A stretch of 64,000 bases of DNA from Planctomycetota bacterium (lineage in GTDB: Bacteria; Planctomycetota; UBA1135; GCA-002686595), in contig PBIX01000040.1 in assembly GCA_002720975.1 (NCBI GenBank), positions 1 through 64,000 on the forward strand, in the 5' to 3' direction. Under the pieces are notes generated by a model. That model made no database searches, was not told where the DNA came from, and saw only the letters and a program-made list of their open reading frames with translations. Positions 1 to 61,023 of this stretch are shown in pieces (within the stretch, counting starts at the first letter, position 1; each line of letters begins with the position of its first letter). The translations under genes and the position numbers were made by a program.

Positions 1-573
1 ACGGCCCAGGACCCGCACCAGACCGCGGTCCACCAGGGATCGCAGGATGGGCCCGGCCTGGACGCCACGGATGGCCTCCACCTCGGCCTTGGTCACGGGC
101 TGGCGATAGGCGATCACCGCCAGGGTCTCCAAGGCCGCCGGGCTGATGCGCTCGACGGCGTTCCCCTTGCCGAGACGACCCACGACCTCACCCAGGTCGG
201 CGCTGGTCATGAGGGTGTGCCCCCCCCGGATGGCACGCACCTCCAGGGGCAGCCCGGTCTCGGAGAGCTTCTGGGTGAGCAGCTCCAGGGCCGCCACAAC
301 CCGCGGCCGCCGGGGGCGATCGAGAAGCTGAACCAGAAGATCCACTCCAAGGGGATCGGATGAGGCAAAGAGCAGCGCTGCCAGGTGACGCACGAGCTCG
401 TCGTCGGAGAGCTTCTCCCCCGGGCCCACCCTTGAGCGCTTCTTGGGCTTGGCCTCGGCCTCGGACTCGGAGGCCTCCCCTTCGTGCTCCTCAGGCAAAT
501 CCTCTGAGGGTTCCGGGGTGTCGTCGTGTTGGTCCGTGGGCTCAAGCAAAGCAGTGTCGGGTTTGGATTCCAT
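1..573 (-). CDS. scpB: Segregation and condensation protein B (partial at left edge)
   Basis: ScpB is the winged-helix partner of ScpA and SMC in chromosome condensation. The frame from ATG at 573 stays open for 191 codons to the window edge, so the C terminus is missing. Residues 1-50 are an acidic, charged extension. The core then shows the family pattern: a first winged helix starting near LSDDELVRHLAALLFAS, and the diagnostic segment SPAALETLAVIAYRQPVTKAE followed by an IRGV-type turn and a second winged helix. It is the last visible gene of the long minus-strand operon. It lies 76 bp after the PpiC lipoprotein gene and is functionally unrelated to the secretion genes before it, so it may be reached by read-through or have its own promoter. 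Assignment is firm from the conserved core. The long N-terminal extension is the only oddity. Confidence 0.9.
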   Translation of the reverse strand, partial: MESKPDTALLEPTDQHDDTPEPSEDLPEEHEGEASESEAEAKPKKRSRVGPGEKLSDDELVRHLAALLFASSDPLGVDLLVQLLDRPRRPRVVAALELLTQKLSETGLPLEVRAIRGGHTLMTSADLGEVVGRLGKGNAVERISPAALETLAVIAYRQPVTKAEVEAIRGVQAGPILRSLVDRGLVRVLGR

Positions 574-649
574 TGGGTGCAGGATCGGCTTTCGGTACAC
601 CGTGATCAAGCACCCGCCGAGGAATGATGGTCTCGGGGTTGGGCTGCAG

Positions 650-1585
650 TCAGTCCAGCGCCACGTCTCCCATCAGACGAAGAAAGGGGGTCATGTCCAC
701 CTCGTGCTCCAGGACCACGGCGGACTTCCACTGCCAGTATTCCGGGTCCTCTATGGGCCTCAGCAAGAGGCTCGCCTCCACGGCCTGGGACAGCTCGTCG
801 GAGTGCTCCGGGGACAAGGGCGTCGGCCTCGCATCCACCTGCATCAACAGCCAGCGATCGCCTTCACGTACGGGCCCGCCCACCTCACCTACCGGGGTCT
901 CAAAGGCCACCAGCGCCAGGGGCGCTCGGCCACGCACCACCGGCGGAACGCGACCGCCCTCGGCACCTGAATCGTCCACGCTCCAGGTCCGGGCCAGATG
1001 GTCAAAGGACTCCCCGGCGGCGAGCAGGGCCTGGACCTCGCTCACCTGCCCTTGGTTCTCCAGCACGATCACGCGCACCTGGGCGTGCGGGGTGCACAGG
1101 AGCCACGCTCGCACAACCCGCTCGGCCAATAGATCCAATTCAGCCTGGTATTGGATGCGCTCCTTGTAGGGACCGGGGTTCAGGCCCAGCCTCTGCCGCA
1201 GGAACTCGTCACTGCTCAGGCCGCCGGCCCCGCTGGCCGCCACCTCCTGATCCAGGCGATCCAGAGCCTGATGCCGAGCTGCCTGCAGCTTCCCGGTGTC
1301 TACGCTTACACCCAGCCGAACGGCCTCGAGCACGATCAGGCGCTCGAGAATGAGCTCGTCGAGCAGCGCTCGTACGCCTCGGCTATCACTATGCAGCCAG
1401 GACTGGAGCAGCTGGGCGGTCGTCAGGGGTTGGCCTGCGACGCGAGCCACGACAGGAGCCCGGGCCACCTCGGTCGTGGCTCCACCGGCCTCTGCGAGTG
1501 CCACCAACGCGCCAGAGCGGGGACCGGCGCATGCGCTCAACCCCAGGCCCAGGAGGAGGGCTGTAGATCCGTGGGGAACGGACAC
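650..1585 (-). CDS. Lipoprotein with PpiC-type peptidyl-prolyl isomerase domain
   Basis: Predicted 311-residue periplasmic foldase of the SurA/PrsA type. The GTG start at 1585, 9 bp after the upstream stop, gives a lipoprotein signal peptide with lipobox LSAC at about residues 16-19. The longer in-frame reading to 1804 lies wholly inside the upstream gene and is rejected. A helical SurA-like region follows (about residues 45-165), including DELILERLIVLEAVRLGV. A parvulin-like domain then runs to about residue 285, with the pattern FDHLARTWSVDDSGAEGG and a C-terminal strand RWLLMQVDARP. It sits at the end of the type II secretion operon, so it may fold or chaperone pseudopilins or secreted substrates; that role is inferred. 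A second PpiC protein lies at 25546. Confidence 0.75.
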   Translation of the reverse strand: MSVPHGSTALLLGLGLSACAGPRSGALVALAEAGGATTEVARAPVVARVAGQPLTTAQLLQSWLHSDSRGVRALLDELILERLIVLEAVRLGVSVDTGKLQAARHQALDRLDQEVAASGAGGLSSDEFLRQRLGLNPGPYKERIQYQAELDLLAERVVRAWLLCTPHAQVRVIVLENQGQVSEVQALLAAGESFDHLARTWSVDDSGAEGGRVPPVVRGRAPLALVAFETPVGEVGGPVREGDRWLLMQVDARPTPLSPEHSDELSQAVEASLLLRPIEDPEYWQWKSAVVLEHEVDMTPFLRLMGDVALD

Positions 1586-1593
1586 GCGCGCGC

Positions 1594-3144
1594 TCAGCGG
1601 AAGTACACGCGACGGGTCACGGCGACTCCCCGACATGCGTGGCAGGGCACGATCTGCACAGAGGAGGACTGATTGCTCCCTCCCCCACCCGAATAGACCA
1701 TCTCCAGCGCCCCACGGCCCCCACAAGTGGAGCAAGACTTGAGGTAGGGGTGATCGCGCAGCTCGTAGTCCCCGGCGTACTCCACGTAGAAGGCCTTGAT
1801 CCAATTGGCACGCTTGCTGAGAGAGAAGGCGTCCCAGAAAACCTGGAACTCATCCTCTTGGGCAGCCCGGGCCTGTGCGCGACGGGCATTGCGCTGGTTC
1901 TTGAGGAAGCGCTGGATCTTGTCCTCCAGTGCCGCCCGCTCCTTGTCCTTGTCGGTCATGGCCTCGCGCTGGGCCGTGGCGTCCTCGGTACCCGCGCGGG
2001 CCTTGTCCTCCCCCAGCATCCAGGTGCCCTCGCCGTAGGTGGCGTTGCTGTAGCGCAGCATGCTGCGCGAGACCCAGTGGGCCACGATCTGATCCTCACT
2101 CGCATCGGAGTTGTACTGCTCCTGGACGTCGGTCAGCACGGCCTTGCGGATGGCCTCACCAAGCCCCTCTTCGGCGTAGGCCACGGCACCGGCGTAGTCC
2201 AGAGAACCAGCAGCCTGCCGGGTCAATCGCGAGAGCCAATAGCCCCAGCGCCTGCGCACGAAGTCGGTCACCTCCTCATCGCGCGCCAGCATGATCTGGC
2301 TCTCCTTTGCCTTGACCTCCAGTACCAGGGGGCTGTCCGGGAATGCGTTGCCGAACTCTGCCAGCTGCTCAAGCGCCTTCTCGTACTGCCCCTTCTTACG
2401 CAGCACGTCGACGCCGCGCAGGTAGTCGATCTGGGCTTGCTGCGCGGCCTTGACCTGGGCCAAAGCCACAGCCTTGACCAGCTCGGGGTGCTCTCCGGCC
2501 TCGTCGAGAGCCACCGCGGCCTGGAAGTGCTCCAGGGCATGCTGGAAATCGAGGAACTGCTCACAGGTGCGCGCCAGGTCAATCTGGCCCTGGAGGTCCG
2601 TCTCCCCCAGCTCGGCCGAGTGGCGCGCATACAGCTCCTCGCGGCTGTAGATATCCAGGGCCGGGGCCTGCCCCCCCTTGGAGATGCTCTGCACACGGCG
2701 CTTGGGTACCAGCTGCAGGTTGCCCTCCACCTGGACGACGAAGTCCGTGCCCTCCCGCGAGAGGATGACGCCCACGACCTCGTGCCCGTCCACCAGGATC
2801 AGGCGCTCCACCTCCACCATCAGCTCGTCCGTGGCCACGTCCACATAGCCCAGTTTCTCGCGCAGCTCCTGCTGTTGGCTGGGATCCAGCGCGGCCCAGG
2901 CAACGCTCGCCACCCCGCCGTGGGATAGAAGCGTGAAGCGGAAGCCGTCCGGGTCGTGATCGAGAATGTGGCCCCACCGGATCTGACCACTGCGCAGCTT
3001 CAGCATCAGCGCCGGTCGCATCTCCTCTTGAGGAGACGGCTCAGGCGTGAGACCGCCGGGGTCCTGTCCGGGAGTCTGGAGCGCGGAGGCACCGGCGCAG
3101 AGAAGCAGGGTGAGGGCGAGGGGCTTGAGGGTGTCGATCATCAC
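1594..3144 (-). CDS. Exported TPR-like protein with C-terminal CxxCxGxG zinc motif, in secretion operon
   Basis: A 516-residue protein of unknown function. It starts with a signal peptide (hydrophobic LKPLALTLLLCAGASALQ). Two small beta modules about residues 45-155 contain LKLRSGQIRWGHILD and VEVERLILVDGHEVVGVI, resembling SH3-like motifs common in planctomycete exported proteins. The middle (about 175-300) is helical and TPR-like (FQHALEHFQAAVALDEAGEH). The C terminus carries two DnaJ-like zinc half-sites, CSTCGGRG and CHACRG, separated by a Gly/Ser loop. Its ATG overlaps the GspI stop by 4 bp, so it is translated with the pseudopilins. The zinc motif suggests thiol or substrate handling, but no catalytic signature is visible. 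Confidence 0.7.
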   Translation of the reverse strand: MMIDTLKPLALTLLLCAGASALQTPGQDPGGLTPEPSPQEEMRPALMLKLRSGQIRWGHILDHDPDGFRFTLLSHGGVASVAWAALDPSQQQELREKLGYVDVATDELMVEVERLILVDGHEVVGVILSREGTDFVVQVEGNLQLVPKRRVQSISKGGQAPALDIYSREELYARHSAELGETDLQGQIDLARTCEQFLDFQHALEHFQAAVALDEAGEHPELVKAVALAQVKAAQQAQIDYLRGVDVLRKKGQYEKALEQLAEFGNAFPDSPLVLEVKAKESQIMLARDEEVTDFVRRRWGYWLSRLTRQAAGSLDYAGAVAYAEEGLGEAIRKAVLTDVQEQYNSDASEDQIVAHWVSRSMLRYSNATYGEGTWMLGEDKARAGTEDATAQREAMTDKDKERAALEDKIQRFLKNQRNARRAQARAAQEDEFQVFWDAFSLSKRANWIKAFYVEYAGDYELRDHPYLKSCSTCGGRGALEMVYSGGGGSNQSSSVQIVPCHACRGVAVTRRVYFR

Positions 3145-3665
3145 GGTCGGTCAGGGGTAGAGGACATGGCGGACTGGCCCTCCCCGCCTGGAGCCGTCTC
3201 CGGGGGCGGGGGGAATGAGCGGGCTTGGATGAAGCGCCGGCGCAGTCGCTCTCCAAAGGGTACTTCACGTAGCAACAGGGTGGTGAACTTGCGCGCGCGA
3301 CGCACTCCGGCGGCCTCCCAGAAGACCTCCACGTCCACGGCGAACTCGTCCGGGTCGTCGGGGTTGACCCGCGCCAGGGCCGAGTAGATCACGCCGGCAG
3401 CGCCGGGCACCGGGCGATCGACGATCACCCGTGGGTCCCCCACGCTGCCGTCCTCCTCCAGGGGGAAGAGGGACTCCTCCAGGTCAGCCACGACCGCCTC
3501 GATAGCCGTGGCCGCGGCCGTGCGCAGGGCGGCGGTGCGGGTCAGGGCTGCGCCGAAGGTGAACAGGCCCAGGAGTGAGGTCATGGCCATGACCAGCAAT
3601 CCCATGGCGAGGACAACCTCCAGGATGGTGAAGCCCGACTGGGTACGGGTGGTTGAAGCACTCAT
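3141..3665 (-). CDS. gspI: Type II secretion minor pseudopilin, GspI-like
   Basis: A 174-residue prepilin. The leader MSASTTRTQSG precedes the prepilin peptidase site G|FTILE, with the conserved Glu at position +5 of the mature protein, then a hydrophobic helix (VVLAMGLLVMAMTSLLGLF). The remainder is a small beta-rich head. Position in the operon between GspJ-like and the zinc protein, and the single N-terminal helix, fit GspI, one of the tip pseudopilins. The I versus H identity rests on gene order rather than on a family-specific motif. The start overlaps the GspJ stop as ATGA, indicating translational coupling. The C-terminal tail is Pro/Gly rich (PPPPETAPGGEGQ) and probably disordered. 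Confidence 0.75.
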   Translation of the reverse strand: MSASTTRTQSGFTILEVVLAMGLLVMAMTSLLGLFTFGAALTRTAALRTAAATAIEAVVADLEESLFPLEEDGSVGDPRVIVDRPVPGAAGVIYSALARVNPDDPDEFAVDVEVFWEAAGVRRARKFTTLLLREVPFGERLRRRFIQARSFPPPPETAPGGEGQSAMSSTPDRP

Positions 3666-55819: not shown

Positions 55820-56367
55820 TCCGCGCGCAAGATGTCCGCGGGCCACACGTCCCGTTCGCGCTCGGGGTGCGGAACGTAGGTGCCATCGTTGTCGGGCATC
55901 GGTGCTCCCGCCCGGTGCATGGCCGTGTACACACCTAGGGCCACCGTGTTGGCCAGGTTGAGGCTGCGTACACCCGGGCGGATGGGCACGTAGACGCGCT
56001 GCGACCCGAGCCGCTCCAGCAGTTCGGCGGGCAGGCCCTTGGTTTCGCTGCCGAAGAACAGCACGTCATCGGACTCGAAGGACGCCTCGAACAGAGAGCT
56101 CCCCCCGCGTGCGGAGAACAGGCGCGCGCGCTCGGCCAGGGGGCGTGTCCCCTCGGCTTCGAGGGCCGACCAGCAGGCGTCCAGATCGGCGTGCACGCGC
56201 AGGTCCACCATGGGCCAGTAGTCCAACCCCGCGCGCTTGAGATAGCGGTCCTCCAGGGAGAAGCCGAGGGGCTCCACCAGGTGCAGGGGCAGGCCCAGGG
56301 CCGCGCTCAGTCGCCCCGCACAGCCGGAGTTGTGGGGAATCTCGGGGTGCACGAGGACGATGTCCAT
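55816..56367 (-). CDS. trmL: tRNA (cytidine34/uridine34-2'-O)-methyltransferase
   Basis: A 183-residue SPOUT-family methyltransferase that modifies the wobble base of tRNA-Leu. Family motifs: MDIVLVHPEIPHNSGCAGRL at the N terminus, LHLVEPLGFSLEDRYLKRAG, DVLFFGSETKGLPAELLERL, and VYVPIRPGVRSLNLANTVAL with the conserved knot glycine and Asn. Length is slightly above E. coli TrmL (157), with a C-terminal extension YVPHPERERDVWPADILR. It is divergent from dinB (73 bp), so the repeat element before dinB lies in its upstream region too. Confidence 0.92.
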   Translation of the reverse strand: MDIVLVHPEIPHNSGCAGRLSAALGLPLHLVEPLGFSLEDRYLKRAGLDYWPMVDLRVHADLDACWSALEAEGTRPLAERARLFSARGGSSLFEASFESDDVLFFGSETKGLPAELLERLGSQRVYVPIRPGVRSLNLANTVALGVYTAMHRAGAPMPDNDGTYVPHPERERDVWPADILRAD

Positions 56368-56415
56368 GGGCGCCGATCCTACCCGGTGTACCTGGGGTGC
56401 ACGGCCCCATGTCTG

Positions 56416-56434
56416 TTCGTGTTTTGTTAGGGTT
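56416..56434 (+). promoter_or_regulatory. Candidate DNA-damage operator upstream of dinB
   Basis: The sequence TTCGTGTTTTGTTAGGGTT ends 6 bp before the dinB ATG. It matches the element before dnaE2 (61055-61073) at 17 of 19 positions, 14 of them contiguous (GTTTTGTTAGGGTT). It is an imperfect direct repeat, TTCGTGTT then TTAGGGTT, 11 bp apart. With one more base upstream it also reads GTTC-N7-GTTA, similar in spacing to the alphaproteobacterial LexA site GTTC-N7-GTTC. Confidence 0.6.
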
Positions 56435-56440
56435 TACGCC

Positions 56441-57778
56441 ATGATTGCCCACCGGGACGAACGCCTGCCCCCACGCACCCGGCGCATTCTGCACCTGGAC
56501 GTGGACGCCTTCCTGGCTTCGGTGGAACAGGCCCTGCACCCCGAGCTGCGCGGCCGGCCGGTGGTGGTGGGCGGCTCCCCCACCAGCCGCAACCTGGTCA
56601 TGTCCTGCTCCTACGCCGCCCGTCGGCGCGGGGTGCGCCCCGGCATGTTCGCCTCCCAGGCGGCACGCCAGTGTCCCGAGGCCGTGTTCGTGCCCGGCGA
56701 CTCCAAAGCCGCCAATCAAAAGCGCGAGGATATCGTGCGTCTGCTGCTGGAGATCTCGCCGCGCATCCAGGTGACCTCCATCGACGACTTCCTCGTGGAC
56801 CTGACGGGCAGCACGCGCCTGCTCGGCTGCGCGTTCACCGTGGCCGAGCGCATGCGCGCCCGGATCTGGACCGAAACCCACATGCCCGTGACCGTCGGTG
56901 TGGGAACGGGCCCCATCCTGGCGCGGCTGGCGGGCAAGCTCGGTAAGCCGGGCGGGGTGGCAGAGATCCTGCCGAGCCACGAACGCGCCTTCCTCGCGCG
57001 CCTGCCCGTGCGCCACCTGCCCGGGGTGGGACACAAGGTCGGGCACGCCCTGGAGCGTTTTTCGATTCGCACCGTGGGCGAGCTGGCGTTGGTCTCACGC
57101 GAGGTGCTCTTCGCCAGCTTCGGCCCCATCGGTTTGACCTTGCACGATCGCGCCCACGGCCGGGACGACGATCCCGTGCAGACCTCCCACCACCTGGACG
57201 CCGCGGGTGAATTGGTAGCGCGCCCTCCCCGCTCCATCCGGCGCGACAGCACCTTCGAACCCGAAGAGGGACGCCGCGAACGGGTGGAGGCCATGCTCCT
57301 GTATCTGGTCGAACGGGCCAGCGCACGCCTCCGGGAACACCGCCTGAAAGCCGGCTCCATGGAGGTCCGGCTGAGCTACGTGGATACCCGCCCACCCCAC
57401 GCACGCGCGCGGGCGACGTCAACGGGCACCGGGGCCCCCCACTCCGGGCTGCACAAACGCAAGCGTCTGCCCCGGTCCGAATCGGGCAGCGAGGCCCTGG
57501 GCCAGCACGCCCTGGCCCTGCTGGCGGCCCTCCCCAGACGGCGCGCCCTGGTCAAGCGCGTGGGCGTCAGCCTCCTGACCCTCAGTCCCGAGAGGGAGAT
57601 CCAGGGCGAGCTGTTCGGCTCCGACGACAGGGACAACCGCCTGGAGGGCGCCCTCGATCACCTGCGGGCGCGCCACGGATTCGGGGGCATCCTACGGGGC
57701 TCCAGCCTCCTGCTGGGCGACACCTTCCCCACGGGCCCCGACGGACTGCGCCTGCGCACCCCGTCCCTCAATCAGTGA
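56441..57778 (+). CDS. dinB: Y-family DNA polymerase (Pol IV/DinB type) with altered catalytic motif
   Basis: A 445-residue translesion polymerase. Start at ATG 56441; the frame open to 56330 overlaps the trmL start. Palm motif 1 ILHLDVDAFLASVEQALHP has the metal ligand Asp20. Fingers include SCSYAARRRGVRPGM. Motif 2 reads TSIDDFLVDLTG (Asp115-Asp116), where Pol IV normally has SxDEAYLD, so the second catalytic acid is Asp in place of Glu. The helix-hairpin-helix is LPGVGHKVGHAL. The little-finger region follows, with a beta-clamp peptide QGELF at 388-392. Asp20 and Asp115 remain, so unlike ImuB it should be catalytic. It shares an upstream element with the DnaE2-type gene at 61096, suggesting a mutagenesis pair. 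Confidence 0.88.
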   Translation: MIAHRDERLPPRTRRILHLDVDAFLASVEQALHPELRGRPVVVGGSPTSRNLVMSCSYAARRRGVRPGMFASQAARQCPEAVFVPGDSKAANQKREDIVRLLLEISPRIQVTSIDDFLVDLTGSTRLLGCAFTVAERMRARIWTETHMPVTVGVGTGPILARLAGKLGKPGGVAEILPSHERAFLARLPVRHLPGVGHKVGHALERFSIRTVGELALVSREVLFASFGPIGLTLHDRAHGRDDDPVQTSHHLDAAGELVARPPRSIRRDSTFEPEEGRRERVEAMLLYLVERASARLREHRLKAGSMEVRLSYVDTRPPHARARATSTGTGAPHSGLHKRKRLPRSESGSEALGQHALALLAALPRRRALVKRVGVSLLTLSPEREIQGELFGSDDRDNRLEGALDHLRARHGFGGILRGSSLLLGDTFPTGPDGLRLRTPSLNQ

Positions 57779-57880: not shown

Positions 57881-58222
57881 TTAGTCGGCCAATGCCGCGG
57901 TGAAGTTGGTCTCGTCCATGACCTTGGCGAGAGCATCCAGGTCGGGCTTCGCATCACCCAGTGCCACGCTGGCTGACTTCGACGTGTAGTCCACCTCGAT
58001 ACAGTCTTCGGAAACGCCAAGGCCTTTAGCAAGTGCAGACCGCACTTTGGGGGGGCACATGGTGCCTCATGACATGCCGTCGATCTTGAAGGCCACGGTC
58101 TTGGCCTTCGGGGTCTCATCAGGAGTTTCCTGGGGCGTTTGCGGGTCGTTGTCGACCGGAATCTCGGAGGTGCAGGCCATAAGGGCCAGCCCCGCCAGGG
58201 CGGGTAGAATGAGTTGCTTCAT
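57881..58222 (-). CDS. Selenocysteine-containing HMA-domain lipoprotein 2 (TGA recoded at codon 52)
   Basis: A 113-residue lipoprotein if the TGA at 58067-58069 is read as selenocysteine. ATG 58222 gives a signal peptide with lipobox LMAC (Cys17), then an acidic Pro/Thr linker (about 20-40). The HMA domain is TVAFKIDGMS-Sec52-GTMCPPKVRSALAKGLGV, continuing through EVDYTSKSASVALG to a last helix ending TNFTAALAD and TAA at 57881. The HMA fold needs the part after TGA for its second half. Sec sits at the first metal-ligand position, with UxxxC spacing to Cys56. A hairpin at 58031-58047 is the SECIS. A seven-G run (58049-58055) directly follows it on the plus strand, but the frame is preserved across it. 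Cotranscribed with the paralogue at 58294 (71-bp gap). Likely binds a soft metal such as copper or mercury at the outer face of the membrane. Confidence 0.85.
58031..58047 (-). promoter_or_regulatory. Bacterial SECIS hairpin in HMA lipoprotein 2
   Basis: Minus-strand sequence AAGTGCGGTCTGCACTT: 6-bp stem AAGUGC/GCACUU, loop GGUCU. It begins 20 nt after the recoded TGA, with the loop starting at nt 26. That is within the 16-37 nt window described for bacterial SECIS elements, with G at the first loop positions as required. The loop equals that of the E. coli fdhF SECIS as I recall it. A second hairpin GGCAC-CAT-GTGCC lies directly after the TGA (58054-58066) and is not shared with the paralogue. 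Confidence 0.82.
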
Positions 58223-58293
58223 GGTTTGTTGTCTTGGGAGTGATGGAACCCGGGTCGGCTGAGCCGGCAGTGGGCGGGGTTCCGATGCGGCCA

Positions 58294-58602
58294 CTACTTG
58301 ATCTTGCCCTCAAAGCCTACGCCGTCGAGAGCTTCCAGTAAGGACTTGTTCGTACATCCGGTGTCAACCTTGACGGTGGCCGTGGCGGAGAGATAGTCCA
58401 CGTCCACGGACTGGACGCCCTCCACGTTCTTGAGTGCAGACCGCACTCGCGGGGGACACCCCACGGCTCACGTCATGCCGGTGATGGCCAGCGAGACCGT
58501 AGCCGGCCCCTCAACCTGATAGGCGGCGTCCTTGTTGGGGCCATGGCATGCCACCAGCGAGGTGCCGCAGAAGAGAACCAAAGCTACAAGGAGTTGTCTC
58601 AT
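58294..58602 (-). CDS. Selenocysteine-containing HMA-domain lipoprotein 1 (TGA recoded at codon 45)
   Basis: A 102-residue lipoprotein when the TGA at 58468-58470 is read as selenocysteine. Start ATG 58602 gives a signal peptide with lipobox LVAC (Cys19) and a short linker GPNKDAAYQVEG. The HMA domain runs TVSLAITGMT-Sec45-AVGCPPRVRSALKNVEGV, then SVDVDYLSATATVKV and a final helix-strand LLEALDGVGFEGKIK, ending at TAG 58294. Residues around Sec match the paralogue as GM[ST]-Sec-xxxCPP[KR]VRSAL. CxxxC forms such as GMTCAVGC are known in HMA proteins, so Sec replaces the first cysteine. It is the promoter-proximal gene of the pair and divergent from the monooxygenase gene. A normal stop here would leave a peptide lacking most of the domain. 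Confidence 0.87.
58432..58448 (-). promoter_or_regulatory. Bacterial SECIS hairpin in HMA lipoprotein 1
   Basis: Minus-strand sequence GAGTGCGGTCTGCACTC: 6-bp stem GAGUGC/GCACUC, loop GGUCU, at exactly the same distance (nt 20-36) after TGA as in the paralogue. The outer pair is G-C here and A-U in the other copy, a compensatory change. The codons used (CGG, TCT, GCA) include TCT for Ser, which appears uncommon in this GC-rich genome, consistent with RNA-level constraint. Confidence 0.85.
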
Positions 58603-58767: not shown

Positions 58768-61023
58768 ATGAAGATCGCCTCCATCGGTGGTGGCCCCGGT
58801 GGCCTGTACGCCTGCCTGCTCCTGAAAAAGCGCTTCCCAGCAGCCGAGGTCACGGTCTACGAACGCAACGGGCCGGACGACACCTTCGGCTGGGGCGTGG
58901 TGTTCTCCAACGAGACGCTCTCGGGGTTCCAGGCCGCGGATCCCGAGACCTTCACGGCCATCGAGGCCAGCTTTGCCTATTGGGACGACATCGACACCCA
59001 CTATGGAGGCGAGGTGCTTCGCTCTACGGGGCATGGATTCTGCGGTCTGTCCCGCAAGCGACTCCTGAATATCTTCCAGGATCGTTGCCGCGAACTGGGA
59101 GTGGCCCTGAACTTCGAAACGGAAGTGCACGACGACGAGGAGCTCGCCGACGCGGATCTGGTCATTGCCGCCGACGGGATCAACAGTTTCGTGCGGGAGA
59201 AGTATGTCGACCACTTCACCCCCAGCCTCGACTGGCGACGCTGCAAGTTCACCTGGCTGGGTACGAACAAACCCCTCAAGGCCTTCACCTTCATCTTCCT
59301 GGAGAGCGAGTTCGGTCTCTTCCAGGTGCACGCCTATCCCTTCGAGGTCGGCGAAGAGGCTCTCTCCACCTGGATTGTCGAGTGCCACGAGGACGTCTGG
59401 AAACGCGCCGGACTGGAAGACGTGAGCGAAGAGCAGACCGTGGAGTTCATCCGCAAGCTGTTTGCCGAGCATCTCGATGGCTATGAGGTCTACACGAACC
59501 GATCCATCTGGCGCACCTTCCCGACGGTGCGCTGCCAGAAGTGGGTGCGGGGCAACCTTGCCCTCCTGGGAGATGCGGTCCATACGGCACACTTCTCCAT
59601 CGGCTCGGGAACCAAGCTGGCCATGGAGGACGCTATCGCTCTCGACGAGGCCCTGGGTCAGGTCTTGAGCGCGGACGGTACGGGGGACGTGCCCGCCGCC
59701 CTGGAGGGCTACGAAGAGGCGCGGGAGGTGGATTGCATCAAGCTCCAGAAAGCGGCCCAGACCAGTCTTGAGTGGTTCGAGAATTCAGCGCGCTACATGG
59801 ACCAGCATCCGCTTCAGCTGACCTTCAACCTGATGACGCGCTCCAAGCGCATCACCTACGGCAACCTGGCCGAGCGCGACCCTGAATTGGTCGAGCGGGT
59901 GCGGGCTTGGTGGTGCGCCGAGCAGGGCGCTCCCGGGGCCAAGGCCCCCATCTTCGCCCCGTTCACCCTGCGCGACCTGACCCTGCCCAACCGCATGGTG
60001 GTCTCCCCCATGTGCCAGTACTCGGCCGAGGAGGGCACTCCCGGCGACTGGCACCTGATGCACCTCGGGGCACGGGCTGTGGGAGGTGCCGGGCTCTTGA
60101 TCACCGAGGCCACGGCCGTCTGTGCCGAGGGTCGCATCACCCACGGCTGCACCGGCCTCTACGGTCCGGAGCACGTACAAGCCTGGCGACGCATCACGGA
60201 TTTTGTGCATGCGCACAGCGCCACCCCCATCGGGATCCAGCTGAGCCACGCTGGACGCAAGGCCTCCTGCTCTCTTCCATGGGAAGGGGACAGGCCCCTT
60301 GACGGAGAGAGCGCATGGCCCACGGTCGGCCCATCCGCCGATGCCTTCGATGCCGACTGGCCCGTCCCACGCGCGATGGATCGCGCCGACATGGACGCGG
60401 TAACGAAGCAGTTCGTCCAAGCCACAGAGCGCGCCCTGGAGGCGGGGTTTGATCTCGTGGAGCTGCACATGGCCCACGGCTACCTGCTCTCCAGCTTCCT
60501 CTCCCCCGCCTCCAACCTGCGCACGGACGAGTACGGCGGCGACCTCGAGGGTCGCATGCGCTTTCCCCTGGAAGTCTGCCGGGCGGTGCGCGCGGTGTGG
60601 CCCGCTCACATGCCCCTGGCCGTGCGCATCTCCGCCACGGACTGGCTTGGTGAAGATGGGCAGACGGCCGAGGATTCGGTGCACCTGTCCCAGCAGTTGA
60701 GTGAAGCCGGTTGCGACCTCATCGACGTGTCTTCGGCGGGCAACACGCCGCGCTCTGAGCCCGGCTACGGTCGTATGTACCAGGTGCCCTTTGCCGAGCG
60801 CATCCGGCACGAGGTTGACGTGGCCGTCATGGCCGTCGGCGCGATCCAGGGCTGGGACCACGCCAACACGGTTCTGGCCGCCGGCCGCGCGGACCTGTGC
60901 GCCCTGGCCCGGCCACACCTCGTCCATCCCCACCTGAGCCTGGAGGCAGCGGTGGAGTTCGGCCAGGACGATCAGTTCTGGCCCCCGCAGTATCTGGCCG
61001 CCAAGCCGAGCCCCGCGGAGTAG
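58768..61023 (+). CDS. Bifunctional FAD monooxygenase / old-yellow-enzyme reductase (aryl-CoA hydroxylase type)
   Basis: A 751-residue fusion. The N-terminal half (1-390) is a class A flavin monooxygenase: FAD motif SIGGGPGGLYACLLLKK, a DG motif in LVIAADGINSFVREKY, and the second FAD motif LALLGDAVHTAHFSIGSGTK. The C-terminal half (about 395-745) is an old-yellow-enzyme barrel: FAPFTLRDLTLPNRMVVSPM, GIQLSHAGRKAS, ELHMAHGYLLSSFLSPASN and NLRTDEYGGDLEGRMRFPLE. This arrangement is that of salicylyl-CoA 5-hydroxylase/oxidoreductase and 2-aminobenzoyl-CoA monooxygenase/reductase. No CoA ligase or ring-cleavage gene is adjacent, so its pathway partners lie elsewhere. Start at ATG 58768, 165 bp from the divergent HMA gene. 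Confidence 0.9.
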   Translation: MKIASIGGGPGGLYACLLLKKRFPAAEVTVYERNGPDDTFGWGVVFSNETLSGFQAADPETFTAIEASFAYWDDIDTHYGGEVLRSTGHGFCGLSRKRLLNIFQDRCRELGVALNFETEVHDDEELADADLVIAADGINSFVREKYVDHFTPSLDWRRCKFTWLGTNKPLKAFTFIFLESEFGLFQVHAYPFEVGEEALSTWIVECHEDVWKRAGLEDVSEEQTVEFIRKLFAEHLDGYEVYTNRSIWRTFPTVRCQKWVRGNLALLGDAVHTAHFSIGSGTKLAMEDAIALDEALGQVLSADGTGDVPAALEGYEEAREVDCIKLQKAAQTSLEWFENSARYMDQHPLQLTFNLMTRSKRITYGNLAERDPELVERVRAWWCAEQGAPGAKAPIFAPFTLRDLTLPNRMVVSPMCQYSAEEGTPGDWHLMHLGARAVGGAGLLITEATAVCAEGRITHGCTGLYGPEHVQAWRRITDFVHAHSATPIGIQLSHAGRKASCSLPWEGDRPLDGESAWPTVGPSADAFDADWPVPRAMDRADMDAVTKQFVQATERALEAGFDLVELHMAHGYLLSSFLSPASNLRTDEYGGDLEGRMRFPLEVCRAVRAVWPAHMPLAVRISATDWLGEDGQTAEDSVHLSQQLSEAGCDLIDVSSAGNTPRSEPGYGRMYQVPFAERIRHEVDVAVMAVGAIQGWDHANTVLAAGRADLCALARPHLVHPHLSLEAAVEFGQDDQFWPPQYLAAKPSPAE

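Follow-up and report, generated by a model that had tools for sequence, protein, structure and literature searches.

Do two in-frame TGA codons end a pair of adjacent genes in a marine planctomycete, or are they read as selenocysteine (Sec), and if so, what would the selenium be for? The genes lie on the minus strand of contig PBIX01000040.1 (assembly GCA_002720975.1, Planctomycetota bacterium), of which the first 64,000 nucleotides were analysed and are here called the window. A first-pass annotation, made from the DNA letters, had described two tandem minus-strand lipoprotein genes in which TGA, at codons 45 and 52, stands where an HMA domain has its first metal-ligand cysteine. The coordinates were borne out, and a lipobox (LVAC, LMAC) is present in each gene. 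The locus comprises the following features.

58294..58602, minus strand: gene A, predicted 102-residue HMA selenolipoprotein; ATG at 58602, Sec at codon 45, TAG stop at 58296-58294
58546..58548, minus strand: lipobox cysteine C19 (LVAC) of gene A, from sequence inspection
58468..58470, minus strand: in-frame TGA of gene A, predicted Sec codon 45, from the sequence and class-wide motif counts
57881..58222, minus strand: gene B, predicted 113-residue HMA selenolipoprotein; ATG at 58222, Sec at codon 52, TAA stop at 57883-57881
58172..58174, minus strand: lipobox cysteine C17 (LMAC) of gene B, from sequence inspection
58067..58069, minus strand: in-frame TGA of gene B, predicted Sec codon 52, from the sequence and class-wide motif counts
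56330..57778, plus strand: DinB/Y-family polymerase, a flanking gene outside the system, with its own stop TGA at 57776-57778
58768..61023, plus strand: FAD-binding monooxygenase/old-yellow-enzyme fusion, a flanking gene outside the system

Read through the TGA, the gene A protein is MRQLLVALVLFCGTSLVACHGPNKDAAYQVEGPATVSLAITGMT-U-AVGCPPRVRSALKNVEGVQSVDVDYLSATATVKV... and that of its paralogue gene B (37% identity) is MKQLILPALAGLALMACTSEIP...FKIDGMS-U-GTMCPPKVRSALAKGLGV.... Both begin with a predicted signal peptide that ends in a lipobox cysteine, as in bacterial lipoproteins; of 43 family members scored with a simple pattern, 37 have a lipobox-like signal. Standard gene calling splits each gene into two short ORFs.

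Conservation of the TGA codon

The sequence context of the two codons was turned into a DNA pattern, GM[ST]-stop-xxx-CPPxV, and run over 154 genomes of the class, with TAA/TAG, the other TG codons and a reversed pattern as controls. The TGA motif occurred 34 times in 29 genomes, while the TAA/TAG version and the reversed pattern each occurred 0 times in the same 154 genomes. The context that had been noted as common to both genes, GM[ST]-TGA-xxxCPP, is therefore conserved beyond chance. The TGC/TGG/TGT version gave a single occurrence, a TGT (locus L099, genome G097); G097 belongs to the same genus as six TGA carriers (G096, G098-G100, G102 and G103), and the genes are closely similar. A second set of Cys homologues, GMACGVMCPPKI, has the codon TGC and was read in two genomes (L151, L157) that belong to a different family of Planctomycetota; a stop-free match was also obtained in G265, a third genome of their genus. 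Homologues with Cys at the TGA position, which the first-pass annotation had proposed to look for, thus exist.

When 61 genomes, the host's and those of 60 relatives, were searched at the protein level, the TGA proved to be conserved for each of the two genes in both congeners, and it recurred in many further genera. When a named collection of ∼85,000 species was scanned, the TGA pattern matched 47 times, mostly in Planctomycetota, against ∼15 matches expected by chance over the whole collection by our rough estimate from pattern information; on inspection, L061, L087 and L093 are probable chance matches among the 47. L056, in which the contig piece truncates the gene, was excluded. Family members outside Planctomycetota include one Myxococcota and one Armatimonadetes contig. 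To judge from these searches, the subfamily with UxxxC spacing is almost exclusively Sec-containing within the class and largely planctomycetal. In all six comparisons of the host species with its two congeners, the stretch past the TGA had a dN/dS of 0.12-0.36, so the downstream sequence is most likely translated and selected as protein.

Selenocysteine machinery and a SECIS-type hairpin

The host genome encodes a tRNA-Sec (73 bits), SelA (489 bits) and, adjoining SelA, SelD (351 bits). Of the decoding genes that the first-pass annotation had proposed to look for, SelB was not found above cut-off in the host draft genome, which is 90% complete. An initial SelB candidate (C91:20815-21705) was rejected, its sequence looking like elongation factor Tu. 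SelB is present in both congeners (G001, G002) and in 57 of the 61 genomes searched, and its absence from the host draft is likely to be an assembly gap. tRNA-Sec, found in 59 of the 61 genomes, is too widespread for a correlation test. The first-pass annotation had named two findings that would speak against it, a genome with no selenocysteine machinery at all and homologues lacking conservation after the TGA; neither arose, since the machinery is not wholly absent and the sequence after the TGA is conserved among homologues.

Downstream of each TGA lies a SECIS-type hairpin.

58432..58448, minus strand: SECIS-type hairpin of gene A, GAGTGC-GGTCT-GCACTC, apical loop 25 nt after the TGA
58031..58047, minus strand: SECIS-type hairpin of gene B, AAGTGC-GGTCT-GCACTT, apical loop 25 nt after the TGA

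The two share the core GUGC-GGUCU-GCAC, with 6 bp and a 5-nt loop that starts with GG. The published bacterial SECIS model has a loop of 3-9 nt with a G in the first two positions, a stem of 4-16 bp, a distance of 16-37 nt after the UGA and a minimum free energy (MFE) of at most -7.5 (PMC13188914). Both hairpins agree with this model except in the energy of the bare gene B hairpin: the MFE is -8.0 to -9.5 for gene A, and for gene B -6.0 to -7.1 kcal/mol for the bare hairpin, slightly above the limit, and -13.7 for a 48-nt stretch. The nine bases of loop and 3' stem, GGTCTGCAC, are identical in the E. coli fdhF element, where their presence was confirmed. The likeness to fdhF thus lies in the apical loop and 3' stem GGUCUGCAC, whereas the fdhF loop is 7 nt nearer the UGA.

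Codon usage within the hairpin is skewed: GCA makes up 29 of 36 Ala codons, compared to a downstream background of 10%, and TCT 19 of 22 Ser codons, compared to 5%. After thinning to 29 representatives with <60% identity, the counts were 18/25 and 8/10. Explicit counts of hairpin pairs gave 77.8% of cells paired, compared to 71.4% when shuffled and 27-56% with the partners slid. Stability exceeded that of synonymous codon resampling only modestly (mean z -0.38 to -0.74), in what is a weak test. RNAalifold returned no consensus pairs for a 40-sequence alignment, so that the case for the hairpin is made by individual folds, the pair counts and the skewed codons.

The conserved TGA, the lack of TAA/TAG, the Cys homologues, the hairpin, the presence of tRNA-Sec, SelA and SelD, and purifying selection downstream strongly support the earlier suggestion that Sec occupies the first ligand position. 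Genes A and B almost certainly encode selenoproteins.

HMA domain and probable metal site

The first-pass annotation had seen a full HMA domain completed past each TGA, and reading through does yield one from each gene. Gene A matches Pfam HMA (PF00403) above the cut-off of 24.8 bits (38.8 bits, 1.2e-9); gene B falls below (19.4 bits, 0.0014) but is 37% identical to gene A. One detail departs from the first-pass description. The TGA does stand at the first metal-ligand position, but alignment gives a spacing of U-x-x-x-C in both genes, with a loop one residue longer than in CxxC. With this departure from GMxCxxC, genes A and B read, by alignment, as a variant of the HMA domain.

Modelled with AlphaFold, Cys standing in for Sec, the gene A domain (pLDDT 87.9) shows the HMA succession of six elements, strand-helix-strand-strand-helix-strand; the Sec position falls in a loop, and the Cys lies where helix 1 starts. 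Its closest structure in the PDB is MerP 1osd (TM 0.88/0.92, rmsd 0.9 A). The gene A domain is thus predicted to have a ferredoxin-like fold with the ligands in the first loop and at the helix start. The sequence profile also matches MerP, CopZ, CopA and ATP7B domains, and we infer metal binding because of the MerP-type fold together with these matches.

Sec-HMA relatives and genomic neighbourhood

Relatives of the pair vary in the number and spacing of their apparent Sec residues. Double-Sec UxxxU sites with two in-frame TGA codons, in which both ligands are apparently Sec, were found in six loci (L034, L037, L049, L124, L125 and L140), and UxxU sites (GATUVGU, GATUMAU) also occur. In L034 and L037 a UxxU domain (GATUVGUPNKV, GATUMGUPDAV) follows the UxxxU domain in the same frame. 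L036 holds two HMA domains in one frame (1537 and 1774, plus strand), each with a TGA at the ligand position. Three tandem HMA lipoproteins are encoded in L130 (G031:C1:4239900-4242000; motifs at 595, 939 and 1499 on the minus strand), with UxxxC, UxxC and CxxC sites, that is, two Sec members and one Cys member. A second subfamily has the motif GL[HT]UG[LMV]WC with TGA (L145, L146, L039), and a Cys relative, GMDCHVWC, is found in L147; by their motifs these would constitute a further Sec/Cys exchange with UxxxC spacing.

In the window the gene pair has no metal-transport gene beside it; its neighbours are DinB and the flavoenzyme fusion, and several genera share this arrangement. The FAD-monooxygenase/old-yellow-enzyme fusion stands beside selenoprotein genes in several genera, and a functional link is not apparent. 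Elsewhere, Sec-HMA genes share contig pieces with CusA/CzcA efflux pumps (L071, L088) or other RND pumps (L079, L091), and in L062 a Sec-HMA gene occurs with a MerR-family regulator and a MerT/CopZ-type gene; such metal-gene contexts are a minority of Sec-HMA loci and do not identify the metal. In addition to the MerR-family regulator, the MerT/CopZ-type ORF and the Sec-HMA gene, the L062 cluster (1-3300, minus strand), from a groundwater planctomycete, has a glutaredoxin-like frame containing a TGA (SATUGSCKAV); it is possibly a multi-selenoprotein metal operon.

Comparison with known families

Sec forms of HMA/MerP-like proteins had been named as already described, correctly so: they include NF041115, NF045683 (MerT_CopZ_Se) and a MerP of the Global Ocean Sampling survey, represented there by 2 sequences (PMC2398784). 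One of them is NF041115 (UxxU_metal_bind), a metal-binding (seleno)protein of the 'putative mercuric reductase' family (ref. 60 in PMC13188914). Like the products of genes A and B it is small, of HMA type, and carries Sec at the metal site; it was matched by all 32 of 32 aligned members (best E 2.3e-14) and is the best NCBIfam match of gene A (52-53 bits). However, gene A reaches 53 bits where the cut-off is 95, and genes A and B differ in their UxxxC-PP motif, single Sec and lipoprotein signal.

MerP (TIGR02052) resembles them as an extracytoplasmic single HMA domain, and 1osd is the solved structure nearest to the gene A model, but the MerP site is CxxC, gene A with 44 bits stays below the cut-off of 92.55, and DinB and the flavoenzyme fusion, not mer genes, adjoin the pair. 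NF045683, a MerT/CopZ fusion-like heavy metal transport selenoprotein, likewise combines an HMA domain with selenium, and the L062 Sec-HMA gene directly follows a MerT/CopZ-type ORF; in contrast to genes A and B it is a fusion with a MerT membrane part, and its cut-off is 375 bits, of which gene A reaches 40. The CopZ/Atx1 copper chaperones, like the N-terminal domains of CopA, are cytoplasmic, have CxxC and are not known to contain Sec. They share the fold and the GMxC loop, while alignment shows their loop (CxxC) to be shorter than that of genes A and B.

Both genes fall below the cut-off of every NCBIfam model matched, and no paper describing UxxxC HMA lipoproteins was found in the open-licence literature. 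Genes A and B are best called members of a UxxxC-PP, mostly lipoprotein, largely planctomycetal subfamily of the already known Sec-HMA kind.

Proposed role and alternatives

Sequence and model support Sec decoding, the fold, the signal peptide and conservation in genes A and B. We propose, with a probability of roughly 0.7, that the products are exported lipoproteins, each with one HMA (MerP/Atx1-like) domain, that would hold a soft metal by Sec and Cys. SelB and tRNA-Sec would decode the UGA as selenocysteine, directed by the hairpin with its loop 25 nt downstream, and the mature protein would be anchored outside the cytoplasm. A soft metal ion (Cu+, Ag+, Hg2+ or Cd2+) would then be held between the Sec selenolate and the Cys thiolate of the G-M-[ST]-U-x-x-x-C-P-P loop, and may be either buffered or handed to an efflux or transport protein. 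Weighing against this proposal are the want of a metal-transport gene beside the pair in the window, the SelB not found in the draft, the missing RNAalifold consensus together with the modest hairpin stability, and the score of gene B under the Pfam cut-off.

The strongest competitor, which we consider unlikely though worth serious attention, accepts the selenoproteins and makes them redox-active: through a UxxxC selenenylsulfide they would act outside the cytoplasm as reductants of peroxides, disulfides or oxidised metals. This compartment is oxidising, and a selenol there could form an Se-S bond instead of binding metal; in most members, moreover, no metal gene adjoins. Selenoproteins are often homologous to redox proteins (PMC13188914). 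The fold is nevertheless that of MerP/CopZ and not thioredoxin-like, the proteins retain the GMx-ligand loop seen in metal-binding HMA domains, and some relatives lie near CusA or MerT/MerR-type genes. That the proteins handle not metals but extracytoplasmic selenium itself (selenite or selenide) is improbable: selenium in the protein is all that speaks for it, and neither SelD nor selenium transport genes were noticed in the neighbourhoods.

The remaining alternatives deny the selenocysteine. If the TGA codons were ordinary stops, the genes would yield truncated lipopeptides, be pseudogenes, or be reinitiated at a downstream GTG or ATG. Downstream ORFs with such starts are present and SelB is missing from the host draft assembly, yet the stop is TGA in every one of the 34 motif occurrences, and selection after it, Cys in relatives and the hairpin codon skew run against this very improbable reading. 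Pseudogenes and truncated peptides were rejected on the count of 0 TAA/TAG in 154 genomes and dN/dS <0.4, and reinitiation was rejected along with the ordinary stop. Genome-wide reading of TGA as an ordinary amino acid such as Trp would explain why the frames stay open, but the neighbouring DinB gene ends in TGA, which is thus a normal stop here, several members with a Sec TGA also appear TGA-terminated (L069, L075, L096), and the genome carries tRNA-Sec, SelA and SelD, so that we give this reading next to no credence.

Preferring, then, Sec-HMA lipoproteins that would bind a soft metal, we tentatively extend the proposal to planctomycetes at large, as a conjecture that may well prove wrong: surface or periplasmic selenolipoproteins in which selenium would serve as a dedicated metal ligand and not as a catalyst, in one-Sec (UxxxC), two-Sec (UxxxU, UxxU) and two-domain two-Sec forms and in tandem arrays, might together trap soft metals in the ocean, or relay them, by means of selenolates outside the cytoplasm. 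For annotation, the finding would correct two genes that are at present broken into short ORFs and left uncovered by NCBIfam models above cut-off. The TGA/TGT pair within one genus (G102, G097) offers a clean comparison of Sec with Cys. Many known selenoproteins are redox proteins; a subfamily in many marine planctomycetes with almost invariably Sec at a metal-ligand position would, if true, be a natural test of what selenium contributes to metal binding.
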